DNA from: Deltaproteobacteria bacterium
GTDB lineage: Bacteria; Myxococcota_A; UBA796; JAFGLY01
Length of the DNA: 37,922 nucleotides
Direction: 5' to 3'
Assembly: GCA_016927815.1 (NCBI GenBank)
Contig: JAFGLY010000088.1
Span: 1 to 37,922, forward strand
In this document: piece by piece, positions 21,719-29,195 of the stretch
Layout: the number at the start of each line of letters is the position of its first letter
Numbering within the stretch: position 1 is the first letter of the stretch
Program-made: the position numbers and the translations under genes
Notes under the pieces: model-generated
Seen by the model: only the letters and a program-made list of their open reading frames with translations
What the model was told of the DNA's origin: nothing
Database searches by the model: none

Positions 21719-22972
21719 TCAGGTGTGCCAGGGCAGCGCGGCTCCCACCATCTGGCCAGGCGCAAGGCGGCCCGCGAGCAGGTTGGAAACCTCCCAGGGC
21801 CTCAAGAATGGCGGCAGGCGACCCGCGCTGTCCATGACGAATCCACAGGACTGCTCCGCGTGGAGGGCACCGTGCGTGGACATCATGCCCCCCACGAGCG
21901 TCGCACCTGCGTGGATGGCGACCGGCCCGTAGGTCCACCCCGTCTCCATGGCGAAGATCACCGTGGCGGGCACCCGGCAGATCCCCCCCTCCAGGGCATC
22001 GCGGATGCGCCGCCATGCGTCCGGGTACTTGAGGTGAGCGGTCTGCTCGAAGGACTCGGTGTCGGTCCACCAGCGTCCCTCGAGCGCGGCGCACTCGAGG
22101 GGATCGCCGTTGATGGGCTCGTACCGGTATCGATCGCCCTCCCAGTGGATCCGTGCCCGAGCCATGCCGCCCATCCGCACCCCGCACACGACGGCGCCGT
22201 CGGGCACCTTCGCCACGGCCAGGTCTACCCCCGAGGCCTGTGCCACCAGCTCGGCGACCGCGGGGGCCCGATCGGGATGCGTGTGCAGCACCCCACTGCC
22301 CACCATGCCCAGAGAGGCCGTCGCGACGCCGTCGGGTGCGCCCCAGATGCCGTGGTACCCACCCAGAGCGAGGAACCGGAGGAGCTCGTCCTCCGAGAGG
22401 TGGAAGCGGGTTCCGCACTCGAGGCCATGGTCGGAAGCCAGCACCACGCGGGGGAGGGTGCCGTGGATCCGGGTGTACTCCTCGCGAACGAGCGCGATCT
22501 TGCGTGCCACCGATTCGAACGCCCTGGCCAGGGCGGCACGACCCTTGAAGTGCCCGAGCGCATCGGTGGCGGAGATCCAACCCATCCAGGGCTCGTCCGC
22601 GTGTTGGAGGGCCTGCTGGGTGATCCACCGCGTCTGGGAGAACGTGAAGCCGCGGGGCAGGGCGTACAGGAAGCCCTCCTGGACGAGTCCCATCCTGGGC
22701 CAGCTCTCCAGGCCACTCGGGGTCATGTGCTCGAAGTCCCGCACGAGCACCCCCCGCTCGGGGTCGAACCAGACGGCCTCGTAGCCTTTCGGCTTGAAGG
22801 GGTGGATCCCGCGGATGAGGGCTGGGATGGCCACGTAGGTCAGGGAAGGGAAGGTGGAGACCATCCTCGACGGAGGGGGAAAGCCGGGGAAGGCGCCCGC
22901 CATCCACGCCCGGCGGGCGATGTCGTAGGGCACGGCGTCCACGAGGACGAACAGGAAGGGGGTCTGGGGCAC
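21719..22972 (-). CDS. Alkaline-phosphatase-superfamily phosphodiesterase/pyrophosphatase
   Basis: A 417-residue hydrolase of the type I phosphodiesterase/nucleotide pyrophosphatase group (PF01663-like). The first metal Asp is in FLFVLVDAVPYDIA, and the nucleophilic Thr sits in STFPSLTYVAIPALIRGIHP. Later metal residues are in ISATDALGHFKG (Asp and His) and LASDHGLECG (Asp-His). LHTHP may contribute another His. This is the full ligand set of a functional two-metal enzyme. The substrate is not predictable; nucleotides, phospholipid head groups or phosphonates are common in the family. The GTG at 22972 opens the enzyme core directly. A TTG at 23023 would overlap the divergent DoxX gene, so the start is uncertain. 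No signal peptide is seen, which suggests a cytoplasmic site. Confidence 0.8.
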   Translation of the reverse strand: MPQTPFLFVLVDAVPYDIARRAWMAGAFPGFPPPSRMVSTFPSLTYVAIPALIRGIHPFKPKGYEAVWFDPERGVLVRDFEHMTPSGLESWPRMGLVQEGFLYALPRGFTFSQTRWITQQALQHADEPWMGWISATDALGHFKGRAALARAFESVARKIALVREEYTRIHGTLPRVVLASDHGLECGTRFHLSEDELLRFLALGGYHGIWGAPDGVATASLGMVGSGVLHTHPDRAPAVAELVAQASGVDLAVAKVPDGAVVCGVRMGGMARARIHWEGDRYRYEPINGDPLECAALEGRWWTDTESFEQTAHLKYPDAWRRIRDALEGGICRVPATVIFAMETGWTYGPVAIHAGATLVGGMMSTHGALHAEQSCGFVMDSAGRLPPFLRPWEVSNLLAGRLAPGQMVGAALPWHT

Positions 22973-23028
22973 GCGAACGGGTTGGCGAGGAGGTTGGGGA
23001 AGGATACCCTGCCAAGGTGGCAAACGTC

Positions 23029-23436
23029 ATGCGCTCGCGGCTCGCGGCCGTCGTCGGCCCCTTCGCCCTCCTCCCCGTGCGACTCGCGGTGGGACTCGCC
23101 GGGATCCTGCACGGCTGGCCGCTCGTCGGCCAGACGCCCGAGGTGACGCGAACGCTCGCCCAGGCCGGGTTGCCCTGGCCCGGAGGGCTGGCCTGGCTGG
23201 GCGCCGGCTCCCTGCTCGTGGGGGGCATCCTGGTCCTGGTGGGGTTCCTGACCCGGCTGGCCGCCCTCGCCATCGTCTGTACGGCCGGCCTCGTGGCCTT
23301 CCGCCTCCGGTTCGCGAACGGCTGCTTCGGAGACCAAGGGTTCGAGGGGCCGCTGCTGCTCGCCCTCGCCGCGCTCACGCTGGTCCTCGGCGGGCCGGGC
23401 CGGGCCAGCATCGACGCGTTCCGGGGCCGGGCCTGA
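23029..23436 (+). CDS. DoxX family membrane protein
   Basis: A 135-residue protein with four membrane helices: LLPVRLAVGLAGILHGWPLVG, GGLAWLGAGSLLVGGILVLVGFL, TRLAALAIVCTAGLVAFRL and GPLLLALAALTLVLGGPG. The R-x-x-x-G-x-x-G/H pattern of helix 1 and the G-x-x-x-x-x-G-F/L-x-T-R-x-A turn between helices 2 and 3 are typical DoxX features. The ATG at 23029 has AAGGTGG eight bases upstream, so it is preferred over the GTG at 23017. Its stop TGA (23434-23436) touches the stop of the convergent aldehyde dehydrogenase homologue with no base between. The function is unknown; a redox link is possible from family knowledge. Confidence 0.83.
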   Translation: MRSRLAAVVGPFALLPVRLAVGLAGILHGWPLVGQTPEVTRTLAQAGLPWPGGLAWLGAGSLLVGGILVLVGFLTRLAALAIVCTAGLVAFRLRFANGCFGDQGFEGPLLLALAALTLVLGGPGRASIDAFRGRA

Positions 23437-25050
23437 TCACCGAGAACGAAGGACGGAAGGCGTGCCCGATCCGGAGGGCTCTCCTGCGCTCGTCTCCTCT
23501 GCTGCCTCGAAGGTGGAGCCGGAGGGCGGACGCCGGGCGCCCCCGGTCCAGTGGACCCCGGGCAGCAGCCTGCGGGCGTCGAACGGCCGGTGCTCCGTGA
23601 GGCTGGCGCGTGGGTAGGCGAGGCTGCGGAGAAGCTGCAGCCCTTCGGCGTGGCCGTTGCTGGATCGGCCCAGGCCCACCCGTGGGAGCCGGAGGTAGGC
23701 TCCGAGCGTGCTCCGGTTGACGTTCAGGCTGCCCGTACGGAGGCGATCCCGGAGTTCTGCCAGGGCGAGATCGTCCGGCCGTGCGAAGACGCTGGTGACC
23801 GAGCGGTAGAAGGCCTGGTTGTGGAGCGCCGCGGCCTCCTCCCACTGTGAGACGCGGTAGACGAGGAGGATGGGTCCGGGCGGCTCCTCGTTGAGGACGG
23901 TGGGACCGTCCTGCCAACGGATCTCGTAGGCAGCGGGCCGCACGTAGAACCCGCGCCGCCCCTCCACATGCTCGTTGCCGGCCGCGTTCAGGCACGCGTG
24001 CCCCTCGCCTTCCAGCGAGCGTGCGTAGCGCCGATAGCGGGTCCGGCGGCTCTCCGAGACCAGAGGTCCCATGAACACGTCCGGGTCGAATCCGTAGCCG
24101 ATCCGCAGGCGAGCGGCCTGCTCGCCGAGGCGCCGGACGAAGCGGTCGAAGAGGCTCGCGACGACGAGGACGCGGCCCGTGGAGTTGTGCCTCTGGCCTG
24201 CCGTGAGGAAGGCTCCGACGAGGACCTCGTAGACGGTGCGGTTCAGGTCCGCACCCTCGAGGACCAGAGCGAGCCCCTTTCCGCCACACTGGTAGATCGC
24301 GGGCAGCTCGGGCCGATCGAACAGGGCACGGCGGATCGTGGTGGCGGTCTCGAAGGAACCCGTGAAGAGGATCTGGTCCACGCCGGGATGCAGCACCAAC
24401 CGCTGTCCGGTGACCGAGCCGGCGCCCTGGACCATGTTGAAGACCCCGCGCGGAAGCCGACAACGATCCCACAGTTCGGCCACGGCCTGGCCGGTGGCGG
24501 GCGTGAACTTGCTGGGTTTCAGCACCACGCAGTTCCCGGCGAGCACGGCCATGGCCGAGTGGGTGATCGGCACGAGGAGCGGGAGGTTGAAGGGCGTGAT
24601 CAGGGCCACGACGCCCCTCGGCACGTGGTCCATCCGGGCGCCGACCTCCTCCACCACCTGGGGGGAGAGCATGGTGACGCCGTCGCCCAGGAGGACGTCC
24701 ACCATGCGGACGCTGGCAGCCACCTCCTGGCGGGTCTCCCACAGCGGCTTGCCGGTCTCCCGGGTGATCAGGACAGCCAGCTGCTCCTGGAGCGCGATGA
24801 GCGACTCCCGCAGCCGCTGGAGCGCCATGGCCCGCTCGCCCACGGGCACTCGCCTCCAGGTCCGCACCGCGCCGGATGCCGACAGGACCGCATCATCGAC
24901 GTCGCCTTCGCACAAGCAGAACCGTCCGAGGACATCCGACCGATCCCCGGGATTGACGGAGTTGACGTAGCCGTCCACCACCTCGGGCTTGAGGAACGAG
25001 CCGTGGATGTAGTCGCCCTTGCGCAGGAGACGGTCATGCGTGAATGGCAC
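23437..25050 (-). CDS. Aldehyde dehydrogenase homologue lacking catalytic Cys and Glu (probable pseudoenzyme)
   Basis: A 537-residue ALDH-fold protein closest by eye to succinylglutamate-semialdehyde dehydrogenase (AstD): GVVALITPFNLPLLVPITHSAMAVLAGNCVVLKPSKFTP, LPRGVFNMVQGAGSVTGQ, ILFTGSFETATTIRR and NEEPPGPILLVYRV. The NAD-site Lys179 (KPSK) and the GS motif are kept. The two residues every active ALDH needs are not. The catalytic Cys of AGQRC is His288 (AGQRHNS, codon CAC). The general-base Glu of LELGGK is Gln254 (YQCGGK, codon CAG). The frame is intact and long, so this is not decay. A Ser/Gly/Glu-rich 50-residue tail is extra. The start is GTG at 25050, with GGAGA five bases before it. 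It is divergent from the glycosyltransferase gene. Confidence 0.85.
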   Translation of the reverse strand: MPFTHDRLLRKGDYIHGSFLKPEVVDGYVNSVNPGDRSDVLGRFCLCEGDVDDAVLSASGAVRTWRRVPVGERAMALQRLRESLIALQEQLAVLITRETGKPLWETRQEVAASVRMVDVLLGDGVTMLSPQVVEEVGARMDHVPRGVVALITPFNLPLLVPITHSAMAVLAGNCVVLKPSKFTPATGQAVAELWDRCRLPRGVFNMVQGAGSVTGQRLVLHPGVDQILFTGSFETATTIRRALFDRPELPAIYQCGGKGLALVLEGADLNRTVYEVLVGAFLTAGQRHNSTGRVLVVASLFDRFVRRLGEQAARLRIGYGFDPDVFMGPLVSESRRTRYRRYARSLEGEGHACLNAAGNEHVEGRRGFYVRPAAYEIRWQDGPTVLNEEPPGPILLVYRVSQWEEAAALHNQAFYRSVTSVFARPDDLALAELRDRLRTGSLNVNRSTLGAYLRLPRVGLGRSSNGHAEGLQLLRSLAYPRASLTEHRPFDARRLLPGVHWTGGARRPPSGSTFEAAEETSAGEPSGSGTPSVLRSR

Positions 25051-25121
25051 GGGTTCTCCGGATCCGATCCCGTAGCCGAGCCTTGGAGCCGTGCAAGGGG
25101 GGGAGCGGATAGGGCCGTCCG

Positions 25122-26267
25122 ATGCCGCTCCGGATCGTCTACCTCCTCCCGGCGCCGGGCATCCCGGTGCGCGGGGTGGGAGGGGCTTCCTCCCACGTGC
25201 GGGGCCTCACGGAAGGATTCGTGGACCTGGGGTGTGCCGTGCACCTCGTCGCGGTCCGCGCGCTCGGCCGCGAGGGCGCGCCCGAAGGCCCGAGGGGAGT
25301 GACCTGGGAGGCGGTGGGGGCACCGAGCAGGCCCTCCTGGCTGCCGAGGCACCTTTCCGAAGTGCGTGCGGCCCGCCGGGTGGCCCGACGAGCCGTTGCC
25401 GAGGCACGCGTGCGTGGGGCCGATCTCCTCCTGGAGCGTCATGCCCTCTTCTCGGACGCGGGTCTGTGCGCAGCAGGGCGCTTGAGCCTACCCTGGGTGC
25501 TCGAGGTCAACGCGCCCCAGGTGATCGAACGGTGTCGCTTCGAGGACCCTCCCGCACCGGGCCCGGCCCGCGCCTGGGAGCGACGCGTGCTCAAAGCCGC
25601 GCCCCGGGTGGCCGCGGTGAGCCGCTGGCTCGCCGAGTGGCTGGTGAACGAGGTGGGCTGCGAGCGCACGCGGGTTCGTCACGTGCCCAACGGCGTCTCG
25701 GCCATTGCGGGGGATCGATCCCGGGGCCGCCTGCGGGCCGCCCTGCCCGAGGACGTGTTCGTGATCGGCTTCCTCGGTGCCATCCGACCCTGGCACGGCG
25801 TCGAGGCCCTGGCCGCGTTGCTGGACCGGCTCCCGGAGGCTCGCCTGCTGATGGTGGGCGCGGACCGGGAGGGGCACGTCCCGGTGCCGGACCGCCACGT
25901 GCATCGGGTGGTGGCCACCGGCCGCGTGGATCCCTTTGAGGTGCCCGATCTCGTCGCGGCCATGGACGTGGGCCTGGCGCCCTACCCGGCGGATGCACCC
26001 CCCTGGTTCTGCCCGCTCAAGGTGCTGGAGTACCGTGCCCAGGGCACGCCGGTAGTGGGATCGGACGTGGGGGACGTGCGTTTCTTGACCGGAGACGGTG
26101 GCACCGTCGTCGCACCGGGCGACCTCGACGGCCTCGCCATGGCGGTCCAGGCCTGGCGGGGCCGGCGGACCGTGCCCTGGGTACGATCCTGGGGTCAGGT
26201 AGCCGGAGAGATCCTGGATCTCGCAGGGCTCACGGGCTCGGTTGGCAACGCGCGCGGGCCCGGGTAG
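25122..26267 (+). CDS. Glycosyltransferase family 4 (GT-B) protein
   Basis: A 381-residue glycosyltransferase. The N-terminal domain begins RIVYLLPAPGIPVRGVGGASSHVRGLTEGFVDLG, the acceptor-side pattern of GT4. The C-terminal domain has VRHVPNGVSAIA, VIGFLGAIRPWHGVEALAALLDRLPEARLLMVG and CPLKVLEYRAQGTPVVGSDVGDVRFL. The last replaces the usual E-x7-E nucleotide-sugar motif with K-V-L-E. It probably adds a sugar to a lipid, polysaccharide or protein; donor and acceptor are unknown. A GGGGGGAG ribosome-binding site lies upstream of the ATG. A 71-base gap separates it from the divergent ALDH-like gene. The next gene, a small lipoprotein, starts 10 bases after the stop. Confidence 0.87.
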   Translation: MPLRIVYLLPAPGIPVRGVGGASSHVRGLTEGFVDLGCAVHLVAVRALGREGAPEGPRGVTWEAVGAPSRPSWLPRHLSEVRAARRVARRAVAEARVRGADLLLERHALFSDAGLCAAGRLSLPWVLEVNAPQVIERCRFEDPPAPGPARAWERRVLKAAPRVAAVSRWLAEWLVNEVGCERTRVRHVPNGVSAIAGDRSRGRLRAALPEDVFVIGFLGAIRPWHGVEALAALLDRLPEARLLMVGADREGHVPVPDRHVHRVVATGRVDPFEVPDLVAAMDVGLAPYPADAPPWFCPLKVLEYRAQGTPVVGSDVGDVRFLTGDGGTVVAPGDLDGLAMAVQAWRGRRTVPWVRSWGQVAGEILDLAGLTGSVGNARGPG

Positions 26268-26277
26268 GGGACGGGCC

Positions 26278-26571
26278 ATGCGAGCCTCCTGCGTCCTCCC
26301 CTGGTGCGTCTTCGCCACCGCCTGCGACGCATGGCGTCCGGACTTCCTGGAAGTTGCGCCGCGCGCCTGCGATCCCCGGACCGCCTTCTACCCCGATGCG
26401 GACGGCGACGGCGTGGGGTCCACGGCTTCGGTGTACATCGGATGCGAGGCCCCCCCGGGCTACGTGACCGTCACCGGCGACTGCGCGGACGACGACCCCA
26501 CCACGACCGCTTGTCCCGACACGGGCCTGGACACGGGCCTGGACACGGGCCTGGCCGGAAGCGAGAGGTAG
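26278..26571 (+). CDS. Small lipoprotein with calcium-loop-like segment and DTGL repeats
   Basis: A 97-residue secreted protein. The signal MRASCVLPWCVFATAC ends in an ATAC lipobox (Cys16). YPDADGDGVGS and DCADDDP resemble thrombospondin type-3 or dockerin-like calcium loops, seen in many deltaproteobacterial lipoproteins as DADGDG...GDCDDxDP. The last residues are three copies of DTGL. The ATG at 26278 follows AGGGGAC and is preferred over 26242, which overlaps the glycosyltransferase end. The stop TAG is 2 bases before the plsB ATG, so the genes are probably co-transcribed. The function is unknown. Confidence 0.75.
   Translation: MRASCVLPWCVFATACDAWRPDFLEVAPRACDPRTAFYPDADGDGVGSTASVYIGCEAPPGYVTVTGDCADDDPTTTACPDTGLDTGLDTGLAGSER
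26518..26553 (+). repeat. Three tandem 12-base repeats GACACGGGCCTG
   Basis: Three perfect copies lie end to end and encode Asp-Thr-Gly-Leu three times at the C-terminus of the small lipoprotein. The number of copies may vary by slippage. Such DTG-type tails are common in surface proteins of this bacterial group. Confidence 0.9.
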
Positions 26572-26573
26572 AG

Positions 26574-29195
26574 ATGGACCCGATCGTCCACCGCCAGGCG
26601 GAGGGCGTTCCGGTGGATCTCGGCCTCGCGCTCCACGCCAGCGGGATGCGGCGGCACTTCGGGATCCTGTTCCACCTCCTGGGCCTGGGTCTCCTGTTCC
26701 GTCCCTTCCGGCTCGAGCCCCACTCGGAGGAGCGCATCCGTCGGGCCGTGGAGGCGGGCCCGGTGGTCTACGCGCTCTACAACCGCAACCTGCTCGACTG
26801 GCTCGCGCTCAACGTGGCGCTCAACGGCCGGGACCTCCCGCTCGCCTCCTTCACCCCGGGCCTGGGGGTCTTGTGGCTGCTGCCCCTTGGGGAGATCGCC
26901 CGCACCTTGCTCTTACGTCTCCAGTGGCGCCGGGAGCGGGGTCCCGTGCCCGATCCGGTGGCGTCCGGCTGGTTGTCCCGACTGCTCGGCACCGGTCGGA
27001 ACGCCTGCATCTTCATGGTCCCGCCCGACCGCGGGACCTCCCGTCCGGCGCCTGACGTGGCCGAGGCCCTTCTCGAGGGCCAGGAGCGATCTGAGCGGCC
27101 GCTCCAGGTCGTGCCGGTGGCCGTGGTCTGGGACCGGGCCCCCCCGCCAGCCCGCACCGAGATCGCCCGGATCGTGCGCGGCAGCTCCGAGACCCCCGGC
27201 CCGATCGCGCGCCTGTACAACCTGATGCGGCAGGGGGCGGACGCCATCGTCCAGGCGGGAGAGCCCATCGATCTCCACCGCTTCGTCGAGCATTACCAGG
27301 GTGAGACCCCGTCCCGACGGGTCCGCATCCTCCGGGTGGCGCTGCGACGCCACCTCTATCGGGAGCAGTCCGTCGTCCGTGGGCCCCGGGTCCGCTCCCG
27401 CGCCTGGATGCGGCGCCTCGTGCTCTCGAGCAAGCCCGTCCAGGACCTCATCCGGCACGAGGTGGCGATCACCGGTCAGAGCGTGGAGAAGGTGCAGAGG
27501 CGGGTGGCGGCGACCTACGACCGGATCGCCGCTCAGCTTTCCTTTTCCGTGATGCACGTGGCCTACCGCGCGAGTCGCCTGCTCTTCACCCGGCTCTACA
27601 GCGGCGTGGACATCCGGCCGGCGGACTTCGACATCGTCCGCCAGGCTCAGCGCAGGGGCACGCCCATCCTGGTGCCCTGCCACCGATCCCACCTCGACTA
27701 CCTCCTGATGTCCACCACCCTCTACCAGCACGACCTGGCCATCCCCTACATCGCGGCGGGGCTCAATCTCTCGTTCTGGCCGGTCGGCCCCCTGGTCCGC
27801 CGCCTGGGTGCCTTCTTCGTGAAGCGCACCTTCAAGGGCGACCGCCTCTTCGGCACCGTGTTCGCCCAGTACGTACGCCAGCTCGTCCGGGAAGCCTACC
27901 CCGTGGAGTTCTTCATCGAGGGGACACGCTCCCGCACCGGGAAGCTGTTGCCGCCCAAGCTCGGTATGGTCGGAATGGTGATGGACGCGGCAGCGAACCT
28001 CGCGCGCAAGGACTTCGACGTCACGTTCCTCCCGATCAACATCTCCTACGAACAGATCGCCGAGGAGAAGGCGTACGCTCGCGAGCTGGCCGGGGAGCGG
28101 AAGAAGGACGAGTCGCTCGGCGACGTGGCGCGGGCGAGCAAGGTGCTTCGCCACCGTTTCGGTCGCGTCTACCTCCGGTTCGGAACGCCGATCCTGGCGT
28201 CCGAGGTGCTGGAGGGCCTGGATCGCCCGTGGGAGGGGCTCTCCAAGGAGCGGCGGAACGAGATCCTCCAGTTCCTGGGCGAGCGGATCCTGCACCGCAT
28301 CAACCAGCAGGCGGTGGTGCTGCCCACCTCGCTGGTGGCCATGGCGCTCCTCTCACATCGCAAGCGCGGGATCCGCAGGGAGGCGCTGCTGGGTCGCGTC
28401 GAGCGCCTGAGAGGGTTTCTCAAGGAGGCGGGTGCCGAGACCAGCGCCACCCTCGCCCATCCGGCGTGGGCCGTGGATCAGGCGCTGCATCGCTTCCTCT
28501 CAGGCCGGAAGGTGGTCGCCTTCGAGGACGAGGCGGGCCCGATCTACCGGGTGTCCGACGAGTCCCGCATCACGCTCGACTTCTACAAGAACACGTTGGT
28601 CCACTGGTTCGTGCCGGCCTCGCTCCTGGCCCTGGTCCTGCGCTGGCAGGTGCGGCGAGCCGGTGGATCCCTGGAGCACACGCCCGACGGGGGACTGCCC
28701 GTGGATCAGGAGGAAGCCGAGCGAACGTTTCGCTTCCTCGCATGGCTCTTCCGGTACGAGTTCGTGTTCGACCCCGAGAGCACGGCCGAGGCGACGCTCG
28801 ACCAGGCGACGCATCGGCTGGCCGCCTACGGTGCCACGTCGGGAGGGCGCGAGGATCTTCGGATCGCAGATGTGCAGCGGGTTTCCGAAATTGCCTCCCT
28901 GCTGTCGAACTTCGTCGAGTCGTACTGGATCACGCTCAAGGCCGCGCACGGGCTGCGCCACCAGGACTTCGACGGATCCACCCTGGTGGCCGCCATCCGG
29001 AAGATCGGCATGGGCATGTACCAGATGGAGGAAGTCCGCCGGAGCGAGTCCCTCTCGGTGCTCAACCTGACCAACGCGGTCCGTGCCTTCAAGGAGGAGG
29101 GCGTGTTCCGCATGAGGTCGGGGGGAGGGGGCCTGGAGTTCGAGCCCCACGCCTACGACGAGACGCTTCGCCTGCTCGGCGAGCTCATGGAGTAG
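26574..29195 (+). CDS. plsB: Glycerol-3-phosphate 1-O-acyltransferase PlsB
   Basis: An 873-residue protein, a little longer than E. coli PlsB. The catalytic core is clear. HX4D is His370 to Asp375 in PCHRSHLDYLLMSTTLYQ. IAAGLNLSFWPVGPLVRRLGAFFVKRTFKGDRLF, FFIEGTRSRTGKLLPPKLGM and the LPINISYEQIAEEKAYARELAGERK segment follow. It acylates glycerol-3-phosphate at position 1, the first step of phospholipid synthesis, at the inner membrane. A degenerate copy of the fold lies near the N-terminus (YALYNRNLLDWLALN), with Asn70 in place of His; a similar inert region occurs in E. coli PlsB. The ATG at 26574 follows GAGGTAGAG. The frame further upstream is a shadow of the lipoprotein gene. The convergent TPR gene ends 6 bases after the stop. 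Confidence 0.94.
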   Translation: MDPIVHRQAEGVPVDLGLALHASGMRRHFGILFHLLGLGLLFRPFRLEPHSEERIRRAVEAGPVVYALYNRNLLDWLALNVALNGRDLPLASFTPGLGVLWLLPLGEIARTLLLRLQWRRERGPVPDPVASGWLSRLLGTGRNACIFMVPPDRGTSRPAPDVAEALLEGQERSERPLQVVPVAVVWDRAPPPARTEIARIVRGSSETPGPIARLYNLMRQGADAIVQAGEPIDLHRFVEHYQGETPSRRVRILRVALRRHLYREQSVVRGPRVRSRAWMRRLVLSSKPVQDLIRHEVAITGQSVEKVQRRVAATYDRIAAQLSFSVMHVAYRASRLLFTRLYSGVDIRPADFDIVRQAQRRGTPILVPCHRSHLDYLLMSTTLYQHDLAIPYIAAGLNLSFWPVGPLVRRLGAFFVKRTFKGDRLFGTVFAQYVRQLVREAYPVEFFIEGTRSRTGKLLPPKLGMVGMVMDAAANLARKDFDVTFLPINISYEQIAEEKAYARELAGERKKDESLGDVARASKVLRHRFGRVYLRFGTPILASEVLEGLDRPWEGLSKERRNEILQFLGERILHRINQQAVVLPTSLVAMALLSHRKRGIRREALLGRVERLRGFLKEAGAETSATLAHPAWAVDQALHRFLSGRKVVAFEDEAGPIYRVSDESRITLDFYKNTLVHWFVPASLLALVLRWQVRRAGGSLEHTPDGGLPVDQEEAERTFRFLAWLFRYEFVFDPESTAEATLDQATHRLAAYGATSGGREDLRIADVQRVSEIASLLSNFVESYWITLKAAHGLRHQDFDGSTLVAAIRKIGMGMYQMEEVRRSESLSVLNLTNAVRAFKEEGVFRMRSGGGGLEFEPHAYDETLRLLGELME

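Follow-up and report, generated by a model that had tools for sequence, protein, structure and literature searches.

Aldehyde dehydrogenases (ALDHs) that have lost their catalytic residues are hardly known outside ALDH16A1. Catalysis in the superfamily requires the cysteine, while a lysine (Lys192) contacts the adenine ribose of the cofactor and an acidic residue disfavours a 2'-phosphate (PMC8160307). Human ALDH16A1, a known ALDH pseudoenzyme, is a conserved protein that has the ALDH fold without the catalytic residues and is thought to act by binding (PMC8160307; PMC10650815); a bacterial ALDH16, that of Loktanella, has been described with catalytic domains (PMC8160307). An inactive, dominant-negative variant of ALDH2 inhibits the wild-type protein in heterotetramers, a known case in which an ALDH without catalysis exerts its effect by way of oligomer formation (PMC10211241). 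Literature searches returned no described bacterial pseudoenzyme of the type of AstD, the N-succinylglutamate 5-semialdehyde dehydrogenase of the arginine succinyltransferase (AST) pathway, nor any catalytically dead bacterial ALDH that an entire order retains among its core genes.

The window analysed here, a stretch of 37,922 nucleotides of deltaproteobacterial DNA, encodes an AstD-like protein of this kind (hereafter pseudo-AstD; Table 1). Its frame runs from 25050 to 23437, with the plus strand closed there; the 537 codons of the original prediction, which had given no strand, are thus found on the minus strand, and the GTG start is backed by homologues beginning V..TR[DE]RLLRKGD. Pfam assigns residues 29-475 to the Aldedh family (E = 2e-94) in a single match, and AstD provides the best profile (TIGR03240, PRK09457) and solved-sequence matches (4kna, 5u0l). 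Like AstD, the protein keeps the GQR motif, KPS, E109, GGK and the C-terminal PG, but it scores below the AstD cut-offs (247.7 vs 579.3 bits for TIGR03240; 253.5 vs 514 bits for PRK09457), a cut-off also missed, at 422-458 bits, by intact members from the phylum and from the Bdellovibrionota. In the alignment to 4kna and 5u0l, the Glu of LEMGGNN corresponds to Q254 and the Cys of AGQRC to H288, the window protein reading YQCGGK (Q254, C255) and AGQRH (H288) at a spacing of 34 residues. This alignment and a check of the codons bear out the original prediction that His and Gln occupy the catalytic Cys and general-base Glu positions, so that the Cys302, Glu268 and Asn169 of a catalytic ALDH do not occur together in the window protein. 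Two further changes had not been predicted, the replacement of the Glu195 equivalent by Lys181 (59/59 order sequences) and of the Phe401 equivalent by Pro391 (54/59, with Val in 5). Unlike AstD, pseudo-AstD has also lost Lys116, His159 and the F457-G458 substrate loop. The resemblance to ALDH16A1 lies in a conserved ALDH fold devoid of catalytic residues; whereas ALDH16 has a second C-terminal ALDH-like domain, itself non-functional, pseudo-AstD consists of one module of 537 aa, belongs to the AstD lineage and lost the residues independently. Unlike the inactive ALDH2, a point variant within one protein, it represents an ancient separate family.

Table 1. Features of the pseudo-AstD locus (positions in the window; residue equivalents in ALDH2 numbering)
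Feature	Position	Strand	Remarks
434-aa protein	21719-23023	-	No Pfam or NCBIfam match
DoxX-family membrane protein	23017..23436	+	Convergent; ends at pseudo-AstD stop
pseudo-AstD, ALDH-fold protein without catalytic Cys and Glu	23437..25050	-	537 aa, GTG start
Pro391, in place of Phe401	23878..23880	-	P54, V5 in order; Phe in 42/42 intact relatives
Glu389, Glu399 equivalent (nicotinamide end)	23884..23886	-	56/59 in order
His288, at catalytic Cys302 position	24187..24189	-	Codon CAC; Cys in 42/42 intact AstD-type relatives
Cys255	24286..24288	-	Codon TGT; not conserved in order
Gln254, at general-base Glu268 position	24289..24291	-	Codon CAG; Glu in 42/42 intact AstD-type relatives
Lys181, in place of Glu195	24508..24510	-	Lys in 59/59 in order; Glu/Asp in 41/42 intact relatives
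Lys178, Lys192 equivalent (adenine-ribose contact)	24517..24519	-	59/59 in order; contact role from PMC8160307
Asn155, at oxyanion Asn169 position	24586..24588	-	Kept in window protein; lost in 20/59 order relatives and all f7-f9 rows
Family 4 glycosyltransferase	25122..26267	+	Divergent neighbour; frame begins 71 bp upstream of pseudo-AstD
PlsB-like acyltransferase	26304..29195	+	Same conserved neighbourhood in f1, f3-f6, f9

Pseudo-AstD is present as a single-copy orthologue in 57 of the 58 genomes searched in the order, spanning 32 genera, the sole genome without it (G056) being 79% complete, and every genome of the class that was searched yields a match (71/71). Residues were counted in 59 distinct sequences of the order and compared with those of 42 intact AstD-type relatives, every one of which retains Cys, Glu, Asn, Lys192 and Phe401. 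In the order the Cys position is occupied by His (40), Pro (8, as in L161), Ala (7, as in L184) and single instances of Phe, Asn, Ser and Gly, and never by Cys, while the Glu position holds Gln (46), Asn (4), two each of Met, His and Leu, and one each of Ala, Ser and Glu. Relatives at 44-70% identity all lack the Cys, and Cys and Glu appear together only in AstDs at ~30-39% identity; no close homologue with Cys and Glu, which would have counted against the original prediction, was thus found. Estimates of dN/dS (NG86) for 14 close pairs lie at ~0.04-0.2, rough values owing to saturation and base composition. The AlphaFold model predicts a confident fold (pLDDT 92.7, pTM 0.89) with a tail disordered after about residue 512, and Foldseek returns AstD 3ju8 as the best AstD match (target TM 0.95), among the best fold matches overall, so that membership of the ALDH superfamily (PF00171) is indicated by both profile and modelled fold. 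In some matches (from a set that includes L105, L114, L116 and L133) the C-terminal tail, whose length varies, contains a stop past residue ~505; L133, from a fragmented genome, shows an early break (196 aa read).

A sequencing error or private mutation is ruled out by a loss common to 59 distinct orthologues, and a pseudogene by order-wide presence, low dN/dS and a confident predicted fold. The absence of the catalytic residues and of AstA from the class might be taken to indicate a recently decaying relic, kept by chance in the window genome, but single-copy conservation across 32 genera, low dN/dS, an undamaged frame and the confident fold refute this reading, which retains next to no chance. 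The original prediction of a maintained protein, most likely with a non-dehydrogenase role, rather than a recent pseudogene, is upheld by the same evidence: the catalytic motif is absent and the gene has been maintained by selection.

The residues that took the place of the catalytic ones have not themselves been fixed. A specific catalytic His/Gln pair found no support in the comparison with the order, where His288 is replaced by Pro, Ala, Phe, Asn, Ser or Gly in 19 of 59 sequences and Gln254 by Asn, Met, His, Leu, Ala, Ser or Glu in 13; nor did the proposal of Cys255 as a new active thiol, this position holding Cys in 28 sequences, Thr in 19, Ser in 8 and Ala, Asn, Met or Leu in one each. 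That the enzyme is active, with His288 or Cys255 doing the work of the catalytic Cys, would agree with the presence of both residues in the window protein and in about one half to two thirds of the sequences from the order, but the loss of His in 19/59 and of Cys255 in 31/59, on several branches, makes it very improbable. The three catalytic positions fall between the 54th and 63rd percentiles of column entropy in the order, an ordinary variability, and the Cys position has switched between His and other residues at least five times within 27 order rows, on several branches. The oxyanion Asn is retained in 39/59 sequences. The frequencies of His (40/59) and Gln (46/59) may exceed what drift alone would leave, and these residues may therefore matter in part of the clade.

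Histidinol dehydrogenase apparently dispenses with its Cys, and a remodelled pocket (His288, Gln254, Pro391, Arg115, Arg416) might likewise run another reaction, NAD(P)-linked or hydrolytic, for which no thiohemiacetal is needed. Such a new activity would account for residues whose invariance is peculiar to the order, namely R416 (59/59, against Gly in 42/42 intact relatives), R115 (57/59), Y398 and H410, and for the retention of the pocket residues E109 and R287 and of E389 (56/59). The residues at the catalytic positions nevertheless vary, with the repeated His/non-His changes noted above, and neither Phe401 nor the Phe457-Gly458 substrate loop has been retained, which renders this possibility unlikely.

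The phylogeny, computed with the trait columns masked, recovers the order as one clade (100/99), and the order together with the class families f7-f9 as another (100/99), which nests among AstDs of the phylum with intact sites, the Bdellovibrionota AstDs falling outside. The pseudo-AstD lineage is ancient, maintained and descended from AstD. In f8 and f9 the Glu has been lost (Gln or Arg) and the Asn is Pro, with the Cys kept in five of six rows (L149-L152, L154) and replaced by Ser in L153, while in f7 (L148) the Cys position is Arg. The absence of Glu from f8 and f9, in which the Cys is mostly kept, implies that the Glu was lost first and the Cys later, on more than one branch. Relatives range from intact AstDs through half-inactivated proteins, which retain Cys but neither Glu nor Asn, to ones inactivated completely, making the path from enzyme to pseudoenzyme directly testable. 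An apparent loss of Glu in the paralogues L155 and L157 proved to be a tblastn gap artefact, MAFFT reading PVQCELGGKN in L155 with the Glu kept. At position 181, f8 and f9 (L149-L154) have Ser, neither Lys nor Glu, and in f9 EEIFGP is replaced by EEIEGP or EEVEGP, which suggests a different use of ligand in that sister group (f8-f9).

Intact AstD has AstA as a neighbour at several of the loci examined in the phylum and, in the Bdellovibrionota, at 9 of the 10 loci with intact sites (L011-L020); mostly an AstC-like aminotransferase or an M20 deacylase is present as well. None of the 71 class genomes searched contains AstA, with positive controls in E. coli and Caulobacter. No AstA was found in the genome of L011, a Bdellovibrionota locus with an intact AstD, and loss of AstA alone therefore does not force the inactivation of AstD. 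In L011-L019, mltG (YceG) lies downstream of the AST operon that contains the intact AstD. Beside mltG in L021 (5905-7512), a Lac Pavin MAG placed next to the Bdellovibrionota AstDs and likewise with no AstA found in its genome, lies a second protein of the AstD lineage in which both Cys (GQRS) and Glu (MGTGGKN) are gone. Unlike pseudo-AstD, it keeps EIFGP and the MltG neighbour of the Bdellovibrionota and has no Lys at 181. It lost Cys and Glu independently of the order clade, although it sits on a long branch; the case suggests that AstD can take the route to inactivation more than once.

These observations are best explained, with a probability of about 0.6, by a vertically inherited, non-catalytic pseudoenzyme of the AstD lineage that would bind an adenine nucleotide, perhaps NADP(H), in a regulatory role. 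The ancestor of the class would have had an AstD that was kept for another purpose when the AST pathway was lost; its chemistry would then have disappeared in steps, first the Glu, with the oxyanion Asn in some lines, and then the Cys, independently in several, the protein presumably staying under strong purifying selection throughout. Pseudo-AstD should have no dehydrogenase activity, since ALDH chemistry needs the Cys (PMC8160307). On its adenosine side the Rossmann site is conserved (K178, K181, G215, G231), and an adenine nucleotide is probably bound there: K178, K181 and G231 are each present in 59/59 order sequences and among the most fixed columns of the alignment, K178 being the NAD-binding Lys whose retention in an intact ALDH fold had been predicted. 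A preference for NADP(H) may be inferred because Glu195, the acidic residue that disfavours a 2'-phosphate, became the invariant Lys181 (PMC8160307); it is this change, together with the retained Lys192 equivalent, that points to such a ligand at the level of sequence. The nucleotide site is partly eroded, with T230 in only 30/59 sequences, S232 in 45/59 and position 152 (the I166 equivalent) variable, so that binding may be weak or the ligand other than NAD(P). CoA was set aside as a ligand of the NAD adenine site, as in a solved CoA-acylating ALDH the CoA adenine occupies a pocket distinct from it (PMC4762007).

The non-catalytic role might instead be that of a regulatory or structural subunit that assembles into mixed oligomers together with one of the cell's canonical ALDHs. 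The full ALDH fold with its C-terminal PG element, the four other full-length ALDHs with intact motifs in the window's own genome (G000) and the inhibition of wild-type ALDH2 by its inactive variant (PMC10211241) would all suit such an arrangement. Yet no intact AstD paralogue is co-encoded, and the other ALDHs share ~26-32% identity and are unlinked, except that L183, L191 and L194 have a distantly related ALDH at 4-8 kb; mixed oligomers are accordingly regarded as rather unlikely. In the preferred reading, a partner would respond to the state of the ligand or to the quaternary assembly of the pseudoenzyme; the neighbouring genes might indicate that this partner belongs to sulfur-amino-acid or arginine metabolism.

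In f1 and f3-f6, cystathionine beta-synthase (CBS) immediately adjoins pseudo-AstD in 32 genomes, nearly always divergently (G018, with both genes on one strand, is an exception), and after it often come cystathionine gamma-lyase/synthase (CGL), the family 4 glycosyltransferase and the PlsB-like acyltransferase; CBS and CGL sit between glycosyltransferase and pseudo-AstD in most families of the order. In f2, a rhodanese-domain gene lies upstream and, in most loci, an arginase downstream. CBS and CGL are missing from the corresponding interval of the window (25051-25121), and G000 has no CBS match at 1e-100. An obligate partnership with CBS is weakened by the fact that the window genome and some others keep pseudo-AstD without such a match, and the repeated neighbourhood, being circumstantial, is only suggestive of a link to sulfur metabolism. 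It is a tentative, less probable extension of the preferred reading that the order holds a core family of ALDH-fold nucleotide sensors, derived from AstD after the loss of AST, that regulate transsulfuration or arginine metabolism and have living intermediates in which Glu is lost and Cys kept. Automatic annotation as 'aldehyde dehydrogenase' or AstD would mislead for this gene in genomes of the order.

On the other side of the gene, the family sister G001 alone showed a DoxX homologue in the corresponding position. The VDAVPYD and SDHGLE motifs of the 434-aa protein look, by eye, like those of an alkaline-phosphatase-superfamily phosphodiesterase. Among the intact relatives, four frames of ~1,720 aa (L216:2814-7958, L217:4749-9908, L023:2628-7808 and L024:5986-11169) join an N-terminal intact AstD-like ALDH to class-III aminotransferase domains (Pfam on L216 and L024). 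This rare arrangement is shared by L023 and L024, from MAGs named Myxococcota, with the same-phylum loci L216 and L217, which suggests that the phylum is Myxococcota. The frames represent a natural fusion, in Myxococcota-type genomes, of activities that are probably arginine-catabolic.
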